Shown here piece by piece: positions 5,244 through 14,504 of a stretch of 64,000 bases of DNA. Positions within the stretch are counted from its first letter, which is position 1. Every line of letters begins with the position of its first letter. Source of the stretch: Halochromatium sp. GTDB lineage: Bacteria; Pseudomonadota; Gammaproteobacteria; Chromatiales; Chromatiaceae. The translations under genes and the position numbers were made by a program. Under the pieces are notes generated by a model that saw only the letters and a list, made by a program, of their open reading frames with translations, was not told the origin of the DNA and searched no databases. The stretch spans positions 1-64,000 of the forward strand of contig POWB01000007.1 of the NCBI GenBank assembly GCA_010912705.1. Reading direction: 5' to 3'.

Positions 5244-5383
5244 ATGAGAGAGAACCCACCCGCTGCCAGGCTCTGCAGGTCGGCATCAGGCATCAGGCAT
5301 CTGCCGCTGGCTGTTTGCGGCCTCGCTCGGCACCAGTGAGCGCCGTTCCAAAAGCTGTTGCAAAGGCTGCAACGCGATCGTCT

Positions 5384-5399
5384 TGTTCGCTTTGCGACA
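5384..5399. promoter_or_regulatory. NifA upstream activator sequence
   Basis: TGT-N10-ACA, the consensus NifA binding site. It is placed 92 bp upstream of the nifE -24 element and about 140 bp upstream of the oppositely directed sigma-54 promoter. Because the motif is a palindrome and lies between two divergent nif arms, it could serve both. Confidence 0.65.
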
Positions 5400-5491
5400 A
5401 TCGCGGCAGCGCGACAAGGTTCGGCAATCGATTCGCTAAGTCGCTGATCAATCGAAGAACCGCAGCGCGCATGCCGATCTTATTCGCTCGC

Positions 5492-5507
5492 TGGCACGGT
5501 CTCTGCT
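5492..5507 (+). promoter_or_regulatory. Sigma-54 promoter of nifENX
   Basis: TGGCAC-N5-CTGCT: a perfect -24 TGGCAC and a -12 TGC core with correct spacing; only the first base of the -12 box differs from TTGCW. It lies 86 bp ahead of the nifE start codon at 5594, with the NifA-type site 92 bp upstream. Confidence 0.75.
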
Positions 5508-5593
5508 TTAGGGTTATCCATCAGGTTATCCATCAGCATGCATTCATCCGCACGCCTTCGCAAACGCTCAAGCCATCGAGATCCTTAAAAGGC

Positions 5594-7075
5594 ATGAAGC
5601 AAAAAGACATCGCCGCGCTCCTGGACGAGCCCGCCTGCGAGCACAACAACAAGGCCAAGTCCGGCTGCGCCAAGCCCAAGCCAGGTGCCACCGCTGGCGG
5701 CTGCGCCTTTGATGGCGCCCAGATCGCACTACTGCCGATCGCCGATGTGGCGCACATCATCCACGGCTCGATCGCCTGCGCCGGCAGCGCCTGGGACAAC
5801 CGCGGCACGCGCTCCACCGGCCCGACCCTCTATAAGCTCGGCATGACCACCGACCTGACCGAACAGGATGTGATCATGGGTCGTGGCGAGAAACGGCTCT
5901 TCCATTCGATCAAGCAGGCCATCGACAGTTACGACCCAGCCGCGGTCTTCGTCTACAACACCTGCGTTCCGGCCTTGATCGGCGACGATGTCGATGCGGT
6001 CTGCAAGGCCGCGGCCGAGCGCTTTGGCAAGCCGGTGGTTTCGGTCGATGCGGCTGGCTTCTACGGCACCAAGAACCTCGGCAACCGTATCGCTGGCGAG
6101 ACCATGGTCAAGCAGGTCTGCGGTGGCCGCGAGCCAGATCCGGTCCCAGAAGGTATCGGACGGCCCGGTTTCAAGGTGCACGATGTCGCGCTGGTTGGCG
6201 AGTACAACATCGCCGGTGAGATGTGGCGCGTGATGCCACTGTTCGACGAGCTGGGCATCCGCGTGCTCTGCACCCTCTCCGGCGATGCGCGCTTCCACGA
6301 GGTGCAGACCATGCACCGCGCGGAGGTCAACATGATGGTCTGCTCAAAGGCGATGATCAACGTCGCCCGCAAGCTCGAGCAGGCCTTCGGCACGCCTTGG
6401 TTCGAGGGCAGCTTCTATGGGGTCGCAGACGTCTCGCGGGCGCTGCGCGACTTCGCCCGGCTGATCGGCGACCCCGACCTCAACACTCGCACCGAGGCGC
6501 TGATCGCCCGCGAGGAAGCGCGCATCGATGCCGAACTCGAGCCCTGGCGCGAGCGCCTGCGCGGTAAGCGCGTGCTGCTCTACACCGGTGGGGTGAAGTC
6601 TTGGTCTGTGGTCTCGGCGCTGCAGGATCTCGGCATGAGCGTGGTCGCCACCGGCACCCGCAAGTCGACCGAGGACGACAAAGCACGCATCCGCGAGCTG
6701 ATGGGCGAGGAGGCGGTGATGATCGAGGACGGCAACCCGCGCAATCTGCTCGACCTCTACCGGCAGCAAGGCGCTGACCTGCTCGTCGCCGGCGGACGCA
6801 ATCAGTACACCGCACTGAAGGCGCGCATCCCGTTCCTGGATATCAATCAGGAGCGCGAATTCGGCTACGCCGGCTACGACGGCATGCTCGAGCTGGCGCG
6901 GCAGATGTGTCTGACCATCGAGAGCCCAATCTGGGCCGCGGTGCGCAGCGCCCCGCCCTGGCGAAGTGCCGGCGACGGAGACTCAGCCGGTGCGCCGGTT
7001 GCGCAATCGCCAACGGCGAAGACTGGAGCTAGCGCCGTAGCCTCGCAAGTAGAAACGGAGGTGGCCCATGGCTGA
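5594..7075 (+). CDS. nifE: Nitrogenase FeMo-cofactor scaffold protein NifE
   Basis: NifE (493 aa) pairs with NifN to form the scaffold on which the NifB product is converted to FeMo-cofactor before transfer to NifDK. The start at 5594 matches the family N-terminus ([15 protein letters not shown]); upstream in-frame codons lie in the promoter region. Conserved features are [39 protein letters not shown], the [11 protein letters not shown] region, [10 protein letters not shown], a C-terminal TGGVKSW and [15 protein letters not shown]. It is first in the nif operon and overlaps nifN by eight bases (ATG at 7068, stop at 7075). The last 30 residues are a variable Ala/Ser-rich tail. Confidence 0.97.
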
Positions 7076-8615
7076 CTCAATACCAACCCTGGCGACCAGG
7101 ATTGCAGACCCGACCCCAATGATCGGTCCATACGGAACCGGCAAATCCCAAGATGCAGTTCGAGTTCAGGATCAGTTATTGAAAGATGGACCAACCATCA
7201 TCAAGCGCAACAAGGCGCTTTCGGTCGGCCCGCTCAAGGCCAGCTCGACGCTCGGCGCCACGCTCGCCTTCCTTGGCATGCGCCGGTCGATCCCGATGCT
7301 CCATGGCTCCCAAGGCTGCACTGCGTTCGGCAAGATCTTCTTCATCCAGCACTTTCGTGAGCCGATGCCGATGCAGACGACGGCGATGGATCAGGTCAGC
7401 ACCATCATGGGTGGCGATGAAAGCATCGTCGAAGGGCTGGCGACCATTTGCGCCAAGCATCAGCCGGCACTGATTGGCATCCCAACCACCGGCCTCGTCG
7501 AGACTCAGGGCGCCGACGTGCCGCGTGCGATCCAAATGTTCCGCGACCGGCATCCTGACTTTGCCGAGGTCGCCGTGGTCCCGGTCGCCTCACCGGACTA
7601 TAGCGGCTGCCTCGAGACCGGTTTCAACAGCGCCATCAAGGCCATCATCGATGCCCTAGTGCCCAAGGCCACCGCCGCCAACACCCGCCCCGGTCGGCGA
7701 CCGCGCCAAGTCAATCTGCTCACTGGCTCAGCACTCACTACTGGCGACCTCGAACATCTGAAGGATCTGCTCGAGCGCTTCCGGCTGCGACCTGTGCTGC
7801 TGCCTGATCTGGCCGACTCGCTCGATGGTCACCTCGTCGAGAGCGACTACAGCGCCCTGACCATCGGTGGCACCCCACTCGATGAGCTGGCGACCCTAGG
7901 CGACGCCGTCGCGACGCTGGTGATCGGTCGCTCGATGACCGGCGCCGCCGATCTGCTGGCCGAGCGCACCGGGGTTCCGGACCATCGTTTCGATCATCTG
8001 ATGGGACTTGAGGCGATGGACCGATTCATCAGTACCCTCGCCGAGATTAGCGCCGAGCCTGTACCCGAGCGTATCGAGCGCCAGCGCTCGCAGCTACAGG
8101 ATGCGATGCTCGACGCCCACTTCTCGATCGGCCAGGGCCGATTTGCGATCGCCGCCGATGCTGACCTGCTGGTGGCCTTCTCGCAGCTGCTGGCGGGCAT
8201 GGGCGCCGAGACCGTCGCCGCGGTCGCGCCGGTCAATGCACCAAGTCTGGCCCAGGTCAGCGCAGCCCAGGTCAAGATCGGCGACCTCGAAGACCTTGAG
8301 CAGCTCGCCCGTGCCAATGGCGCCGAGGTGCTGATCACCAATAGCCATGGCACGCATACCGCCAAGCGTCTGGGCATCCCGCTGCTGCGCGCCGGCTTCC
8401 CCCAATTCGACCATGTTGGCGGCTGGCAGCGGCAATGGATCGGCTATCAGGGCACCCGCCAGACCCTGTTCGACCTCGCCAATATCATGCTCGGTCTGCA
8501 TAAGGGCGAGATCGCGCCCTATCGCTCGCGGCTCAAGCAGTGGCCAGAAGGCGAGCGTCAGGGCAGCGCGCTTGACGCGCTCGATGCCAGCGTTGGCAAG
8601 GCTGTCGTGGTCTAG
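7068..8615 (+). CDS. nifN: Nitrogenase FeMo-cofactor scaffold protein NifN
   Basis: The beta-like partner of NifE in the cofactor-assembly scaffold. Conserved features are [38 protein letters not shown], the [11 protein letters not shown] region, [12 protein letters not shown] and the late [23 protein letters not shown] (given here in part). At 515 aa it is longer than usual (about 460 aa). Family similarity begins at [10 protein letters not shown] near residue 44, so the first 40 residues are an extension. The ATG at 7068 has a GGAGGTGG ribosome site and overlaps the nifE stop, which supports the long form. An alternative is a TTG near residue 38. Confidence 0.95.
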
Positions 8616-8684
8616 ACCCAGGGCCGCCTTAAGAGCCTTATTTGCCCATTTCTATCGCTCAGAGCGCGCATCACCACCCGGCAG

Positions 8685-9203
8685 ATGAGCCAGCCGATTC
8701 AGGGTAACCCAGTCCGAGCCAAGACGATGACGATGAAACGCCAGCTCAAGGTCGTCGGTCGCGACGACACCGACGCGACAGCGGTCAAGGTCGCTTTTGC
8801 CACCACCGACCGCAAGCGTGTTAACCAGCACTTCGGCGCCGCCGAGGGCTTCGCCATCTACCGGGTGTCGCCAGGTGGCTACGAGCTACTGGAGGTCGCC
8901 CAGTTCGGACGCCTCGACATGGATGGCAATGAAGACAAGCTCGGTGCCAAGATCGAGGCCCTCACGGGCTGTATTGCCGTCTACTGCCAAGCCGTTGGCG
9001 CCTCGGCCATCGGCAAGCTGCGCGCGCAGGGCATTCAGCCGATCAAGGTCACACCCGAGACCTTAGTCAGCAGTCTGCTGCATGCGCTCAAGCGCGAGCT
9101 ACGCGATGGCCCTAGCGCCTGGCTCAAACGCGCCATCGAGCAACAGAGCCCACGCAGTGAAAGCCGCTTCGACGCCATGGCGGCTGAAGCCTGGGAAGAA
9201 TGA
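8685..9203 (+). CDS. nifX: Nitrogen fixation protein NifX
   Basis: NifX binds the NifB cofactor and a NifEN-derived intermediate and acts as a carrier or reservoir during FeMo-cofactor synthesis. At 172 aa it is slightly longer than the Azotobacter protein. Visible motifs are KVAFATTDRKRVNQHFG (dinitrogenase iron-molybdenum cofactor domain start), FGRLDMDGNEDKL, CIAVYCQAVGASA, the QPIKV strand and the C-terminal RFDAMAAEAWEE shared with A. vinelandii NifX. The start is uncertain: ATGs at 8685, 8727 and 8733 are all in frame, and none has a strong ribosome site. It lies 69 bp after nifN in the same direction. Confidence 0.93.
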   Translation: MSQPIQGNPVRAKTMTMKRQLKVVGRDDTDATAVKVAFATTDRKRVNQHFGAAEGFAIYRVSPGGYELLEVAQFGRLDMDGNEDKLGAKIEALTGCIAVYCQAVGASAIGKLRAQGIQPIKVTPETLVSSLLHALKRELRDGPSAWLKRAIEQQSPRSESRFDAMAAEAWEE

Positions 9204-9266
9204 TGAGCCAATAACCATCCATCCCCAACAACAATCCATCTAAGAGCCACGACATCGGAGAAGACC

Positions 9267-9752
9267 ATGAGCACTGAGACCGCAACCGCCGAGCCAGCAA
9301 TCGATCCGAATGACCCCGTGCTAGGCACCGAGTTCGCAACCGAGATGGTCCGGCAGGTACGCGCTATTGATCCCTATGGCACCTATGACGAGCTCTCGGC
9401 TGCCGAGGTGCTCGAGCCCTATGTGCTGACCAAGGAGAAGAAGCGCGAGATCCCCATCGTCGGCGACCCCGATGAGATCATCGTCGCCCGCATCCAGGCC
9501 TTCTACAACGCCATCGCGGTGCTGATCGAAAAGGAATGTGGACTGCGCGCGGTGCCTCTGCTGCATCTGACCCACGAGGGCTTTGGGCGGGTGCTGATCA
9601 CCGTCGGCAAGCTCGTGGTCATGGATCGCTCGCTGCGTGACGTGCATCGCTTCGGCTTCGCCTCTCTGTCGAAGATGAAGGACGAAGGCGACAAGCTCCT
9701 TTCGGTTGCGCTCGAGCTGATTGGCGAGCACAGCCAGGTCGCCGGACTCTAA
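9267..9752 (+). CDS. NifX-associated nitrogen fixation protein (DUF269)
   Basis: A 161-aa protein of the DUF269 family, found almost always directly after nifX in diazotrophs. Visible family features are DPNDPVLGTEF, FATEMVRQVRAIDPYGTYD, KKREIPIVGDPDE, the GRVLITVGKLVV strand with DRSLRDVHRFGF, and SLSKMKDEGDKL. Its biochemical role is not well defined; it is thought to assist cofactor synthesis. The start has a GGAGAAG ribosome site six bases upstream. It is part of the nifE-to-fdxB transcription unit. Confidence 0.92.
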   Translation: MSTETATAEPAIDPNDPVLGTEFATEMVRQVRAIDPYGTYDELSAAEVLEPYVLTKEKKREIPIVGDPDEIIVARIQAFYNAIAVLIEKECGLRAVPLLHLTHEGFGRVLITVGKLVVMDRSLRDVHRFGFASLSKMKDEGDKLLSVALELIGEHSQVAGL

Positions 9753-9768
9753 ACAGGATGCGCATCTG

Positions 9769-9984
9769 ATGAGCGAAGACGAGATCAAGGCCCTCGAGAA
9801 GGCAATGAAGAAGGCCAAGCGCATCGCCAGTGAGCGCGCGAGCGAGCTCCACGATCTGGTCGAAGACCGCCTACCAGCGGCCTTCGATGAGATACCGGCG
9901 ATGGCACAGGCCACCTACGAGGCCTGTCAGGCCTGGGCCGAGGCCAAAGCACGCTTTGAGCAGGCACAGACGGCAGATGCCTGA
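9769..9984 (+). CDS. CCE_0567-family small nif protein (DUF683)
   Basis: A 71-aa soluble, highly helical protein beginning MSEDEIKALEKAMKKAK. It matches the small DUF683/CCE_0567 family encoded between the NifX-associated gene and ferredoxin in many nif clusters. The ATG at 9769 is preferred to one at 9721, which lies inside the previous gene. It starts 17 bases after the previous stop. Two helices with heptad-like Ala/Leu spacing are evident (residues 3-30 and 38-66). Known members are small helical oligomers; a role in metal or cofactor handling has been suggested but not proved. Confidence 0.88.
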   Translation: MSEDEIKALEKAMKKAKRIASERASELHDLVEDRLPAAFDEIPAMAQATYEACQAWAEAKARFEQAQTADA

Positions 9985-10025
9985 GCATGCCAGATTCACA
10001 GTCCCCAACCTAGCGGAGCAAGCCA

Positions 10026-10334
10026 ATGAGCACCATCACCGGACTCACCCGCGGCGGCGTCCAGTGGACGCCCGCCTTCATCACCGACCTGAACCAGACT
10101 AACTGCATCGGCTGTGGCCGCTGCTTCAAGGTCTGCCCGCGTGATGTCTTCGAGCTCATTGATCGTGAAGATCTCGATCTCGACGACGATGATGATTTCG
10201 ATGACGACTTCGACGAGGCGCCGGGGATGGTGATGAACCTCAAAGACGCCCTTGACTGCATTGGCTGTGAGGCTTGCTCACGCGTCTGCCCCAAGGGTTG
10301 CCTATCCCACGAGCCGCACGCGATCGCTGCCTGA
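10026..10334 (+). CDS. fdxB: Nif-specific ferredoxin III (2[4Fe-4S])
   Basis: A 102-aa ferredoxin carrying two cluster-binding motifs: CIGCGRCFKVCP (about residue 24) and CIGCEACSRVCPKGC (about 79). Between them is a very acidic stretch (residues 48-65, nearly all Asp), an exaggerated form of the acidic loop in FdxB proteins. It is thought to supply electrons for cofactor biosynthesis rather than directly to nitrogenase. The start MSTITGLTRGG matches the family N-terminus and has an AGCGGAGCAAG ribosome region. It is the last gene of the nif block in this window. Confidence 0.93.
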   Translation: MSTITGLTRGGVQWTPAFITDLNQTNCIGCGRCFKVCPRDVFELIDREDLDLDDDDDFDDDFDEAPGMVMNLKDALDCIGCEACSRVCPKGCLSHEPHAIAA

Positions 10335-10356
10335 GCCCTGTCCGACCGATGTCGCC

Positions 10357-10566
10357 TTAGCTGGCCGACAGAGTCGGATAGTCGGTGTAGCCTTCGGCCC
10401 CGCCGCCATAGAAGGTCTCCGGATTAGGTGGCGTCAGCGGCGCACCTTCGCGCAACCGTCGCACCAGATCCGGATTGCTGATGAACGGCCGGCCGAAGGC
10501 GATCAGATCGGCCTCTTCAGCAGCTAGCGACCTCTTGGCACTCAAATCCTTAACCGAGAGGATCAA
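10357..10566 (-). pseudogene. C-terminal fragment of an alkene reductase (Old Yellow Enzyme, nemA-like)
   Basis: About 69 codons encode [20 protein letters not shown], a Gly-Ala-Pro-Leu stretch, then [19 protein letters not shown]. This is the exact C-terminal signature of NemA/OYE-type flavin oxidoreductases (usually about 360 aa). The FMN-phosphate loop GRPFI is present, but the barrel that should precede it is absent. Upstream lies only the end of the RND permease gene. The only usable start is a TTG at 10566 overlapping that stop. I read it as a remnant left by a deletion or rearrangement that brought the RND gene next to it. Confidence 0.75.
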
Positions 10567-13500
10567 TCCTCGGCCGGCTTGTTTTGACCACTGCCTTCCG
10601 CCGAGCTTGAAGAGACGTCTGCCGACGAGGATTTTGAAGCGGTCTTACGCGTTGCCGCCTTCTTGGTCACTCTGCGCTTGGCAACCCCCTTCTCGCTCAG
10701 CGCTTTCTTAGCGGCGGGCTTCTCAGCCACCGGTGTCTTGGAAGCCGTCTTCTTGGCGGCTGGTTTCTTGGCCGCTGCTTTCTTCACGGCCGCCTTAGCC
10801 GTCGTCTTTCGGGTTGTCGACGTCCTCGCGACTGCCTTCTTCGCGACAGGCTTTTTTGCCAAGGGCTTTGCGGCCTTAGGGCGAGCAGGTCCAGGCTCTT
10901 CAGTCGCCGGTTGCGGTTGGCGTTGCTGCTGATCCTGCTTGGGGCCGCGCTCCTCAATTCCCCTATCCGCGGCCCGCTCGAGCATCCGCTGTATCGATGC
11001 AACGAGCCATTGCAATAGCCTCACCAGGACGATGACCCCATTGATCAGCGCCGAAATCACTGCCACCAACACCGACCAGGCAATCATCCATAAGGGTAGC
11101 CCTCCGCCAGAGGCCTGAGCGTCACGCGCATCTGGGGTACCAGTATCGCCGCCAACCCCGCCCTCGATCTCAGCATAGCCAGCCGACAGCATCCGTTCGC
11201 CGCTCTCGGTCTCGATCAGATAGAACCGCCGCGTCAGCGAGATACAGCCAAGAGGGATCACGATCACCGCCATCAGGGTCGCAACCCCGGCCCCAAACAG
11301 CAGGCTCACGGCCATGCCTTGGAAGATCGGATCATCGATAATCGCCCAAGCGCCCGCCATCAGCGTCAGCGAGGTTATCAGGATCGGCCGCATCCGAATC
11401 TCGGCACCATCCACCGCTGCATCATGCACCGGCTTGCCGCGTGCGACCTCGATCTTGACGAATTCGACGATCAGGATCGACTGGCGCACGATGATGCCGC
11501 CAAGTGCGATCATTCCGATCATCGAGGTCGCGGTAAACTCAGCGCCCATGATGAGATGGCCGGGGATGATGCCGATTAAGGTCAGCGGGATCGGCGACAT
11601 GATCAGCCCAGCGATCGCAAAGTCCCGGAACTCCCAGACGATCAGGCCATAGATCAGCAGCAGCGCCGCCATAAAGGCGATGCCCATATCGCGGAAGGTC
11701 TCATAGGTGACTGTCCACTCGCCGCTCCACTCGAAGTCGGCGACGGCATCACCCTTCGGCGGGCCGATCAGTCCATCCGGCATCCCGCTCATCGCCTCAC
11801 CCGGCCCGGGTGGATCATAACCCTCGAGCAGATCCTCGACCGCAAACATGCCATAGATCGGTGCCCCCAGTCGGCCCTCCATCTCGCCGACGACATACTC
11901 CATCGGCCGCAGATCCTTATGGTAGATGGTCTGATCTTCTGATTGACGCACGAAGCGCCCAAGCTCGGCCAGCGGCACCATGCTGCCATCTGGCCCTCCG
12001 ATCGGCAGACTGCCCAGCGCAGTGATCTCGGAGCGATAGGAGAGCGGCACCTGAATGACGATAAAGGTCGGCTCCTGCACCGTACCGCGCTTGACATCGC
12101 CTACCTTGGTCGCACCCAGGGCCATCGCCAGATTGCGGTTGATGGTATCAACCGAGATCCCGCGCCGCACCGCCTTCTCGGTATCAACCTCAAAGCGCCA
12201 AGAGTCATAGGGCTGGATCAGGTAGTTATCGACATCGACCACGCCCTCGGCCTGCTCAAATATGGCCGTCAGATCATGCGCGACCTGACGGCGAACCTCG
12301 CTGGTTGGGCCATAGATCTCGGCGACCAGGGTCTGCAGCACCGGCGGCCCCGGCGGCATCTCGACGACGGCGATACGGGCACCAAGACGCTGCGCCATTG
12401 GTTGGAGCAGCGTCCGTGCGGCAACGGCGATCTCATGACTGCCACGCTGACGCTCTTGCTTATCCTTGAGCAGCACCAGCAGATCGCCCTCCCAAGCCTG
12501 CTCACGTAGATAGTAGTGCCGCACCATGCCATTAAAATTGAATGGCTGTGCGGTACCAGCATAGGTCTGGATCGCCACCACTTCGGGCAGCTCCTTGAGC
12601 TTCTCGGCGAGCTGCCGCACCACGTTCGCGGTCTCCGGTAGCGCCGTGCCCTCCGGCATATTGACGACGACGCTAAACTCCGGCTTGTTGTCGAACGGCA
12701 GCATCTTTACCGGCACGACCTTGAAGTAGAACAGCGTGCAGACCAATGCCGTGATGGCGATGGTGCCGATCAGGAAGACCTTGCCCAGGGTCCGGCTCTC
12801 GATCAACGGCATCACCAACGGCCGATAGAAGCGGCTGACGATCTCGCGCGTGCGCTGCTCGCGGCGCTCGGCGCGCTCCAGGGCCTTCAGCCGCGGGCGT
12901 ACGCGCAGCGCAAACCAAGGGGTGAAGACAAAGGCCGCGATCAACGAGAAGAACATCGCCGAGGAGCCAAGCACTGGGATCGGACGCATATAGGGCCCCA
13001 TCAGGCCACTGACCCAGCCCATCGGCAAGAGCGCAGCGATGATGGTGAAGGTGGCGAGGATGGTCGGGTTGCCGACCTCATCGACCGCGGCAACGGCTTC
13101 GGCAATACTGGTCTTGCCCTGCTCCAGCCAGTGCCGAAAGATGTTCTCGACCACCACGGTGGCATCATCGACCAGGATACCGATGGCGAAGATCAACGCA
13201 AACAGACTCACCCGGTCGATGCTGTAGTCGACCATCCAGGCCCACCAGATGGTCAGCAGGATGACGACCGGAATCACTGAGATGACGACGATCGCGGCGC
13301 GCAGCCCCAGCCCGATCAGGCAGAGGATTGAGACGATCACCGCCGCCTCGAACATCGCCTGCAGCAGCTCATTGACCTTATCGTTGGCACTCTGGCCGTA
13401 ATTGCGCGTGACCTCAACCTGCACATTGGTCGGGATCATGCGCTGCTCCAAGCTGGCCAGCTTCTCGAGCAGGGCCTCGGCAACGGTGACGCCATTTGAG

Positions 13501-14504
13501 CCTTCCTTCTTGGCAATCGCCAGGGTAACGGCCTGCGCACCATTGGCCGGATGCTCTCCCGCATAGGCAGGACCGGTCAGATGGGTCACGACCTGATCGG
13601 TCTCCTGCGGCAGCGGCAGCACGCGCGCGACATCGCGGATATAGATCGGCTGACCGCCCTGACTACCAACCACCAGGCGGGCAATATCATCGGCGTTCTG
13701 CAGGAAGGCGCCGGAATAGACCTTGTACGCGGTGCCACCGCCTTCGGTGCCGCCGGTCTGGGTTTCGGCATTGGCGCTACGGATGGTCTGCGCGATACGA
13801 TCGAGCGTGATGCCATAACCGGCTAGACGCTCCATCATCACCTCAACCCGGATCTGCTCCTCTCGCCCGCCAACCACGAAGCCCTTGCCGGTATCCGGCA
13901 CGGAGCCAAGCTCCTGCAAGATATCCAAGGCCAAGGTGCGCAGCTGGCTGTCCTCAACCTCATCAGACCAGAGCGTCAGCGTAACGATGGGCACGTCATC
14001 GATGCTCACCGGCTTCACCAGCGGTGACTTCACATCAGGCGGCATGCGATCCATGTTTGCCTGCAGCTTGTCGTGGATCTTGACCACCGACTCGCCCATG
14101 TCCTCGCCGACCTTAAAGCGCACAGTGACGACGGCACCACCGCGCTGCGTGGCGGAGTAGACATGGCGTACCCCGGTCAGCTCCATCATTAATTGCTCGA
14201 GCGGTTCGGTCACCATGCTCTCGACTTGAACCGCGGAGGCTCCCGGGTACTGCATGAAGACATCGATCATCGGCACCGAGATCTTCGGATCTTCCTGCCG
14301 CGGCGTGAACAGCAGCCCGAGCAGACCAATGCAGAGCGCCCCAATCAAGAGCATCGGGGTCACTGGGGTATTGATAAAGGTGCGCGCGATGCGCCCAGAC
14401 AGACCGAGCGAGGCCTGGGCGTCTGCCGTAGGCCCCTGCCCCAGCGGGCTATTCGGGCTATTGCTTGCGGGCTGCGACGGGCCGGTGTGGGTCGATTCAG
14501 TCAT
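10563..14504 (-). CDS. RND efflux permease with a C-terminal histone-H1-like Lys/Ala tail
   Basis: An inner-membrane proton-driven resistance-nodulation-division transporter of the AcrB/HAE type, 1313 aa. N-terminal [14 protein letters not shown] opens TM1. The porter domain follows, with [20 protein letters not shown] and [13 protein letters not shown]4 carries the paired acidic residues [16 protein letters not shown] needed for proton relay, and a second TM block is at about 950-1080. Normal family length ends near residue 1090. Then come a Gly-rich linker, an extra hydrophobic stretch (about 1135-1172), and a strongly basic tail (about 1210-1295) of AAKK/PAAKK repeats like histone H1. No membrane-fusion partner gene adjoins it. 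Substrate unknown. Confidence 0.9.

Follow-up and report, generated by a model that had tools for sequence, protein, structure and literature searches.

The window, the 64,000-nucleotide stretch of Halochromatium sp. DNA analysed here, contains an open reading frame (10563-14504 (-)) that stays open to its stop codon and encodes a 1313-residue RND permease (Table 1). The Pfam model ACR_tran matches residues 39-878 with 478 bits against a cut-off of 28 (E 6.6e-143), full-length RND models align to about residue 1100, and Foldseek assigns the core an RND fold, with 8gjj, 7cz9 and 8f3e as the best matches (TM by target 0.84-0.87), which together place the protein among the RND efflux permeases. 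The full permease core and its fold are common to the window protein and the RND/HAE1 permeases AcrB, MexB, MexK, OqxB and CmeB. The solved RND/HAE1 relatives listed (60 of 83 by sequence and 50 by fold) are 1007-1069 residues long and end at about query residue 1100, whereas the window protein continues past the core for about 218 residues (1096-1313), made up of a linker, then a helix, then a tail rich in K, A and T; the helix and the tail are additions absent from those listed relatives.

Table 1. Features of the window in and around the RND permease gene.
Feature	Residues	Position	Strand	Basis
RND permease core	40-1095	11220..14387	(-)	ACR_tran; Foldseek RND folds
Variable linker	1096-1137	11094..11219	(-)	AF2 pLDDT block means <=65; intra-genus amino-acid identity 27-70% (residues 1105-1137, pairwise)
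Single hydrophobic-to-amphipathic helix (the 'hairpin' of the earlier note)	1138-1184	10953..11093	(-)	Unbroken in AF2; single helix also in own-genome paralogue
K/A/T-rich low-complexity tail	1206-1300	10605..10889	(-)	Composition; HC2 37 bits, below cut-off; orthologues
C-terminal end, without RRGI.L. motif	1301-1313	10566..10604	(-)	Sequence and motif scan
Remnant: C-terminal end of an Old-Yellow-Enzyme-type oxidoreductase		10352..10524	(-)	85.5% identity over 173 bp to L033; Oxidored_FMN in L033
Nitrogenase cofactor genes: two Oxidored_nitro, Nitro_FeMo-Co protein, DUF269, ferredoxin		5315-10334	(+)	Converge on RND gene

The gene sits next to nif genes, with neither a membrane-fusion protein gene nor an ATPase gene beside it. 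Homologues of the nitrogenase cofactor genes also adjoin the RND gene in four related loci (L032-L035), and the oxidoreductase remnant abuts the RND stop codon, at the place where in G002 and G005 a full-length open reading frame immediately follows the orthologue. In the stretches examined, no match to a c1-type (HlyD) membrane-fusion protein, as expected of a tripartite pump, adjoins the window gene or its closest orthologues (clade A); such a partner may be encoded elsewhere in the genome.

The final 118 residues comprise 28 Ala, 25 Lys, 12 Ser, 11 Pro, 11 Thr, 6 Arg, 6 Glu and 2 Asp, a net charge of +23. The histone-family Pfam model HC2 gives 39.9 bits for the entire protein and 37.0 bits for the tail alone, with a gathering cut-off of 40, and it hits none of five shuffled versions of the tail, so that the score depends on the order of the repeats as well as on composition. 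Judged by the encoded residues, the resemblance to histone H1 is real in composition and repeat style; membership of the histone family does not follow, and with a score just under the cut-off we rejected it. To this extent the claim of an earlier note on this DNA, that an RND permease carries a long H1-like cationic tail, is borne out by the intact reading frame, the ACR_tran match, the tail composition and the tailed orthologues described below. A second Pfam model, ASFV_J13L, reaches 25.7 bits on the last 195 residues (cut-off 23.6) and 19 on the whole protein; its match spans linker, helix and tail and is taken as compositional.

In an AlphaFold2 model of residues 34-1200 (mean pLDDT 81) the extension forms one unbroken helix of 47 residues, predicted with moderate confidence (pLDDT block means 57-83). 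A model of a paralogue from the same genome (mean pLDDT 72) likewise has a single unbroken helix, of 38 residues. The earlier note had read this segment as an extra hydrophobic hairpin that crosses the membrane twice, and the single helix in both models leads us to reject that as the best reading. An extra hydrophobic helix is also associated with the RND permease in AcrZ-AcrB, as described in excerpts of PMC7267776; the window helix differs in being fused to the permease C-terminus.

Orthologues were sought in 55 genomes, comprising the window's own genome (G000) and related ones. Six same-genus orthologues (G001, G002, G003, G005, G006 and G007) are 81-93% identical over the matched parts, and three more distant ones (G029, G017 and G016) are 72-76% identical. 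K-rich tails with net charges of +14 to +31 are found at the complete C-termini of G000, G001, G002, G003, G005, G007 and G029. The G017 orthologue (L039/L073) retains the hydrophobic segment and ends just past it, with no tail, and those of G006 and G016 are interrupted by a contig end; cationic composition is therefore retained in seven of the eight clade-A proteins with a complete C-terminus. Because orthologues in six other genomes have the same architecture with a K-rich tail, the tail is no assembly or sequencing artefact, and the join that the earlier note named as a refutation is rejected. Six genomes of the window genus differ in the length of the stretch beyond the helix, from 85 to 272 residues. 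In intra-genus comparisons the K-rich part is only 31-52% identical in amino acids, its dN/dS is 0.24-0.32 compared with 0.05-0.09 for the core, and its non-synonymous sites change at about nine to thirteen times the rate of those in the core, rates that are rough since the repeats are hard to align. The predicted proteins of this clade thus conserve charge, not sequence.

The window's own genome also encodes a paralogue of the window gene (L041, on G000:C13). In the operon of this paralogue and its relatives we found a membrane-fusion protein (HlyD_D23, c1), the RND permease, a ParA/MinD-family ATPase (c2) and a one-helix, coiled-coil-like protein (c4), often with a DUF4412 protein (c8) and sometimes with a DUF302 protein (c16) or a 5'-nucleotidase. 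The ATPase carries the deviant Walker A motif KGGSGKST; KGG.GKST is invariant in 11 aligned sequences. Among known structures it is closest to ParF, ParA and McdA (ParF 4dzz, E 6.6e-11), and by motif and structural relatives it is a ParA/MinD-family ATPase. The c4 protein (L041:10535-11128 (+) and homologues) is strongly conserved, has one hydrophobic segment and a DUF948 similarity below cut-off, and occurs in many operons; it is possibly a further component of the pump-ATPase system. A dynamin-family GTPase (Dynamin_N; for example L042:1688-3265 (-) and homologues) repeatedly adjoins the operon. Tail-less pump relatives at L069:1345-3682 and L070:3856-4845 (+) adjoin proteins that by eye resemble pentapeptide repeats, and no membrane-fusion protein match lies beside them.

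The tails of the paralogous permeases share the plan of the window protein, a linker, a hydrophobic helix and a low-complexity stretch, and terminate in RRGI(R/Q/K)L(K/R/N) with 0-21 residues beyond it. By chance this pattern arises in only 7 of 11400 shuffled extensions. Of 67 long tails in the subfamily 65 are net positive, the other two (L199 and L059) having net charges of -14 and -24, and some relatives' tails are acidic or rich in Pro and Ala. In three loci (L067, L264 and L279) the RND tails consist of lengthy EKAAA repeats cut off by contig ends; assembly seems to break down in low-complexity tails. A helix, a low-complexity, mostly cationic tail and a terminal motif are the usual plan of this RND subfamily in Gammaproteobacteria; the basic motif is conserved, lies at a disordered terminus, and belongs to a gene that neighbours the ATPase gene. 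A motif scan found no RRGI.L. motif, and hence no candidate docking motif for a ParA/MinD partner, in the window protein, and the motif is likewise present in none of its clade-A orthologues with a complete C-terminus.

Motif and ATPase gene are inherited together. In a first set of loci the motif is present in all 27 RND genes that share a stretch with the ATPase gene. An ATPase profile searched against 369 gammaproteobacterial genomes matched 70 of them at E<=1e-30, 65 with more than 180 bits, and from these a second set (L188-L245) was picked for holding the gene; the resulting tables bear on whether the motif is present and not on how common the gene is. L207 of this set is apparently a duplicate of the L077 record in the first. 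Its 58 ATPase stretches include 35 with a readable RND C-terminus (the others have no RND gene, many ending at a contig edge), and 34 of the 35, from 22 families, carry the motif. The pattern was drawn from the first set and one position was widened for the second (L or I, for L204); by our reading the unwidened pattern is found in 33 of 35, and L052 and L059 count as motif-bearing once the last position admits R. The remaining C-terminus (L195:10313-11512 (+)) has a frameshift just past the helix, with a K-rich tail and the RRGI.L. motif in another frame, which is either a sequencing error or real decay.

For a joint table we dropped RND genes that were less than 48% identical to the core of the window protein, that stopped matching short of its residue 1080 or that had no stop codon in the stretch. 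Of the 110 retained, 23 had less than 4.2 kb downstream and were then dropped, leaving 87 non-redundant genes, among which close relatives of one genus are entered separately. Motif and ATPase gene are both present in 55, the motif only in 2, the ATPase gene only in 1 (the frameshifted L195) and neither in 29; both thus occur in 55 of the 58 genes that have either. In the two motif-only cases, G025 and G048, the ATPase gene is present at another place in the genome. With a slightly narrower motif pattern, the tables in the same order are 40/15/8/24 for c4, which is far less tied to the motif than the ATPase gene is, and 26/29/7/25 for c8. Loci of the ATPase-less class (L262-L272) were picked for having no listed ATPase match, and one of them (L263) turned out to bear the motif. 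Eleven genomes were searched for RND genes, ten of them selected because their ATPase stretch held none, and in six (G127, G326, G274, G075, G219 and G372) a motif-bearing RND gene was found away from the ATPase stretch; the ATPases of G274 and G372 share only 37-40% identity with the L041 protein.

Motif and ATPase gene are also lost together. Four lineages keep other operon genes and lack both: G015 (c1, c4 and c5 kept; tail kept, its end altered), L082 with G123 and G247 (c1, c3, c4 and c8 kept; no tail), G145 with G261 (c1, c4, c5 and c8 kept; no tail) and G220 (c1, c3, c4, c5 and c8 kept; K-rich tail kept). All four keep c4 and three also c8. G220 and G015, with the motif gone and the tail retained, are most like the window copy. 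The ATPase profile detected no ATPase gene in the loci of these lineages. Across whole genomes, G015 gave only a ParA-like match of 30% identity (52 bits) and G055, the genome of L082, one of 21 bits; the 70 matches from the 369 genomes include none from G123, G145, G220 (a genome 72% complete), G247 or G261, whose place among the 369 is inferred from handle numbers.

In trees from quick searches with SH-aLRT support only, the co-loss lineages fall in separate places, G015 being sister to a genome with both motif and ATPase gene, although two neighbouring ATPase-less branches may represent one event; the 'no ATPase' labels were set by hand, and that of L156, whose contig ends 468 bp downstream, is uncertain. 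The window clade (L001, L032, L038 and L073) is sister to five motif-bearing rows, four of which have the ATPase gene, so loss of the motif in the window clade appears secondary. A tail-less paralogue from Halochromatium glycolicum clusters tightly with the paralogues of the window genus.

According to excerpts of PMC10241942 and PMC12204374, the widely differing partners of ParA/MinD ATPases are bound by way of N-termini that are short, disordered and positively charged. As in the McdA-McdB and ParF-ParG systems, the relatives of the window gene pair a small ATPase with a deviant Walker A motif with a neighbouring protein whose basic terminus is disordered; the differences are that the putative partner is here the pump itself and that the basic peptide is C-terminal, whereas the cited docking peptides are N-terminal. 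From these partner peptides and the similarity of c2 to ParF, ParA and McdA, we propose that RRGI.L. would be a docking peptide for the co-encoded ATPase. The tail belongs to a C-terminal extension of one HAE1-type subfamily, in which the core is followed by a linker, one putatively membrane-associated helix, a long disordered linker and a basic RRGI(R/Q/K)L(K/R/N) end. On this proposal the disordered, low-complexity stretch would serve as a cytosolic tether and the pump, or its complex, would be positioned in the cell as ParA cargo.

The window copy has neither the basic docking peptide nor a neighbouring ATPase gene, and for lack of the motif it is not directly covered by the docking reading. 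On our reading it is a relocated paralogue that lost both and kept the helix and the strongly cationic tail; an ATPase gene persists in its genome, within the L041 operon. If active, the window tail would most likely be a non-specific electrostatic tether to cytosolic polyanions, in the manner of AlgP and PhaF, or else it may be a relic of the docking tether. We judge this explanation as a whole, including the window copy as a motif-less relocated paralogue, to be somewhat more probable than its negation. Several observations count against it. In three motif-bearing genomes, G024 (L056), G063 (L079) and G131 (L263), the ATPase gene was not found (G063 has one 22-bit match), but only 2.0, 2.8 and 0.7 kb of contig follow the RND gene, so the ATPase gene may be missing from the assemblies. 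Conversely, G275 and G085 have the ATPase gene and no RND match at E<=1e-150, and G159 has only a 42% RND match. Another RND permease in G127 and one in G250 have variant ends, RRGIRADKK or RRGIRADRK, a second RND gene in G250 being cut off; positive tail charge is not universal, and G017 is tail-less.

For the window clade itself, the tail may instead be a low-complexity left-over of the docking tether that drifts freely and is now functionless, a possibility we regard as real if on the unlikely side. The absence of motif and neighbouring ATPase gene, the variable length and low identity of the K-rich part and the loss of the tail in G017 all point this way, but net charge is maintained in seven of seven clade-A tails and the dN/dS of the K-rich part, by the rough estimate above, is below 1.

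We consider it unlikely that the K/A-rich tail is chiefly a direct tether that binds DNA or RNA non-specifically, as AlgP, PhaF and histone H1 do, and so keeps the pump near the nucleoid. Its K/A composition and near-threshold HC2 score, lost on shuffling, favour such a role, as do the cationic, motif-less tails of clade A and the net positive charge of most long tails in the family. There is also a precedent: in excerpts of PMC9239181 and PMC13052382, a role in linking granules to the nucleoid is reported or supposed for the H1-like tails of AlgP and PhaF from Pseudomonas, and these tails, like that of the window protein, are C-terminal, disordered and rich in K, A and P. However, AlgP and PhaF are granule proteins, not transporters, and DNA binding is reported for their KPAA repeats, whereas the window tail is likened to them by composition only. 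Moreover, relatives' tails are sometimes acidic or Pro/Ala-rich, the G017 protein has no tail though it keeps the hydrophobic segment, the K-rich part evolves far faster than the core, and DNA or RNA binding by the tail is a prediction from sequence. The suggestion of the earlier note that DNA or RNA is tethered to a transporter is not supported, by way of direct binding, as the main function of the family: tail charge is not strictly conserved, whereas the terminal motif is conserved and accompanies the ATPase gene. For the window copy itself, direct binding of polyanions may apply.

It is improbable, in our view, that RRGI.L. serves another partner, such as the membrane surface, c4, c8 or another pump subunit, and follows the ATPase gene only as a marker of an intact operon. 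Operon genes are in general co-inherited, and the proposed contact between motif and ATPase is drawn from comparing sequences. Against this, the four co-loss lineages retain c4, and three of them c8, and have lost the ATPase gene and the motif together, and G025 and G048 retain the motif though the ATPase gene lies elsewhere in their genomes.

The C-terminus of RND permeases is known from AcrB to be cytosolic, and cationic sequence after a membrane helix favours the cytosolic side (the positive-inside rule). With a helix that does not cross the membrane, the tail would stay cytosolic, in agreement with its cationic character and with the cytosolic ATPase of the relatives. A cytosolic tail, as the earlier note had it, is thus the likely arrangement, though not by the route of two crossings. 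Very improbable is a single membrane crossing by the extra helix that would place the tail in the periplasm, perhaps in contact with lipopolysaccharide or peptidoglycan: the window protein and the four orthologues nearest to it have an uncharged run of 26-27 residues, long enough for one crossing, and AlphaFold2 gives one helix rather than two, but a strongly cationic stretch follows the helix, the inferred ATPase partner is cytosolic, and the longest uncharged run is at most 16 residues in 35 of the 46 extensions surveyed, including those of G001 (12) and G017 (16) of the same clade.

Positioning by an ATPase through a basic terminal peptide is already known, and a transporter as the partner would be new. 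PMC10241942 contains neither the word 'transporter' nor the word 'efflux', and we found no paper linking an RND pump to a ParA-type ATPase in the open-licence PMC literature, as judged from search listings. If docking to the ParA-like ATPase holds, a pump tail with its own docking peptide would be a new class of cargo, the puzzling tail would be explained, and the tether between DNA and transporter would hold for the family indirectly, through the nucleoid-bound ATPase. More tentatively, in many families of Gammaproteobacteria RND permeases might themselves be the cargo adaptors for a ParA/MinD-type ATPase dedicated to them, docking by the C-terminal RRGIRLK peptide at the end of a long disordered tether and so being actively positioned over the nucleoid; the window clade would have given up the link to the ATPase, with its remaining polycation gripping the nucleoid directly. 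The motif is short, testable and present in at least 22 families, and the window copy without the motif and the lineages without the ATPase gene lend themselves to comparison.
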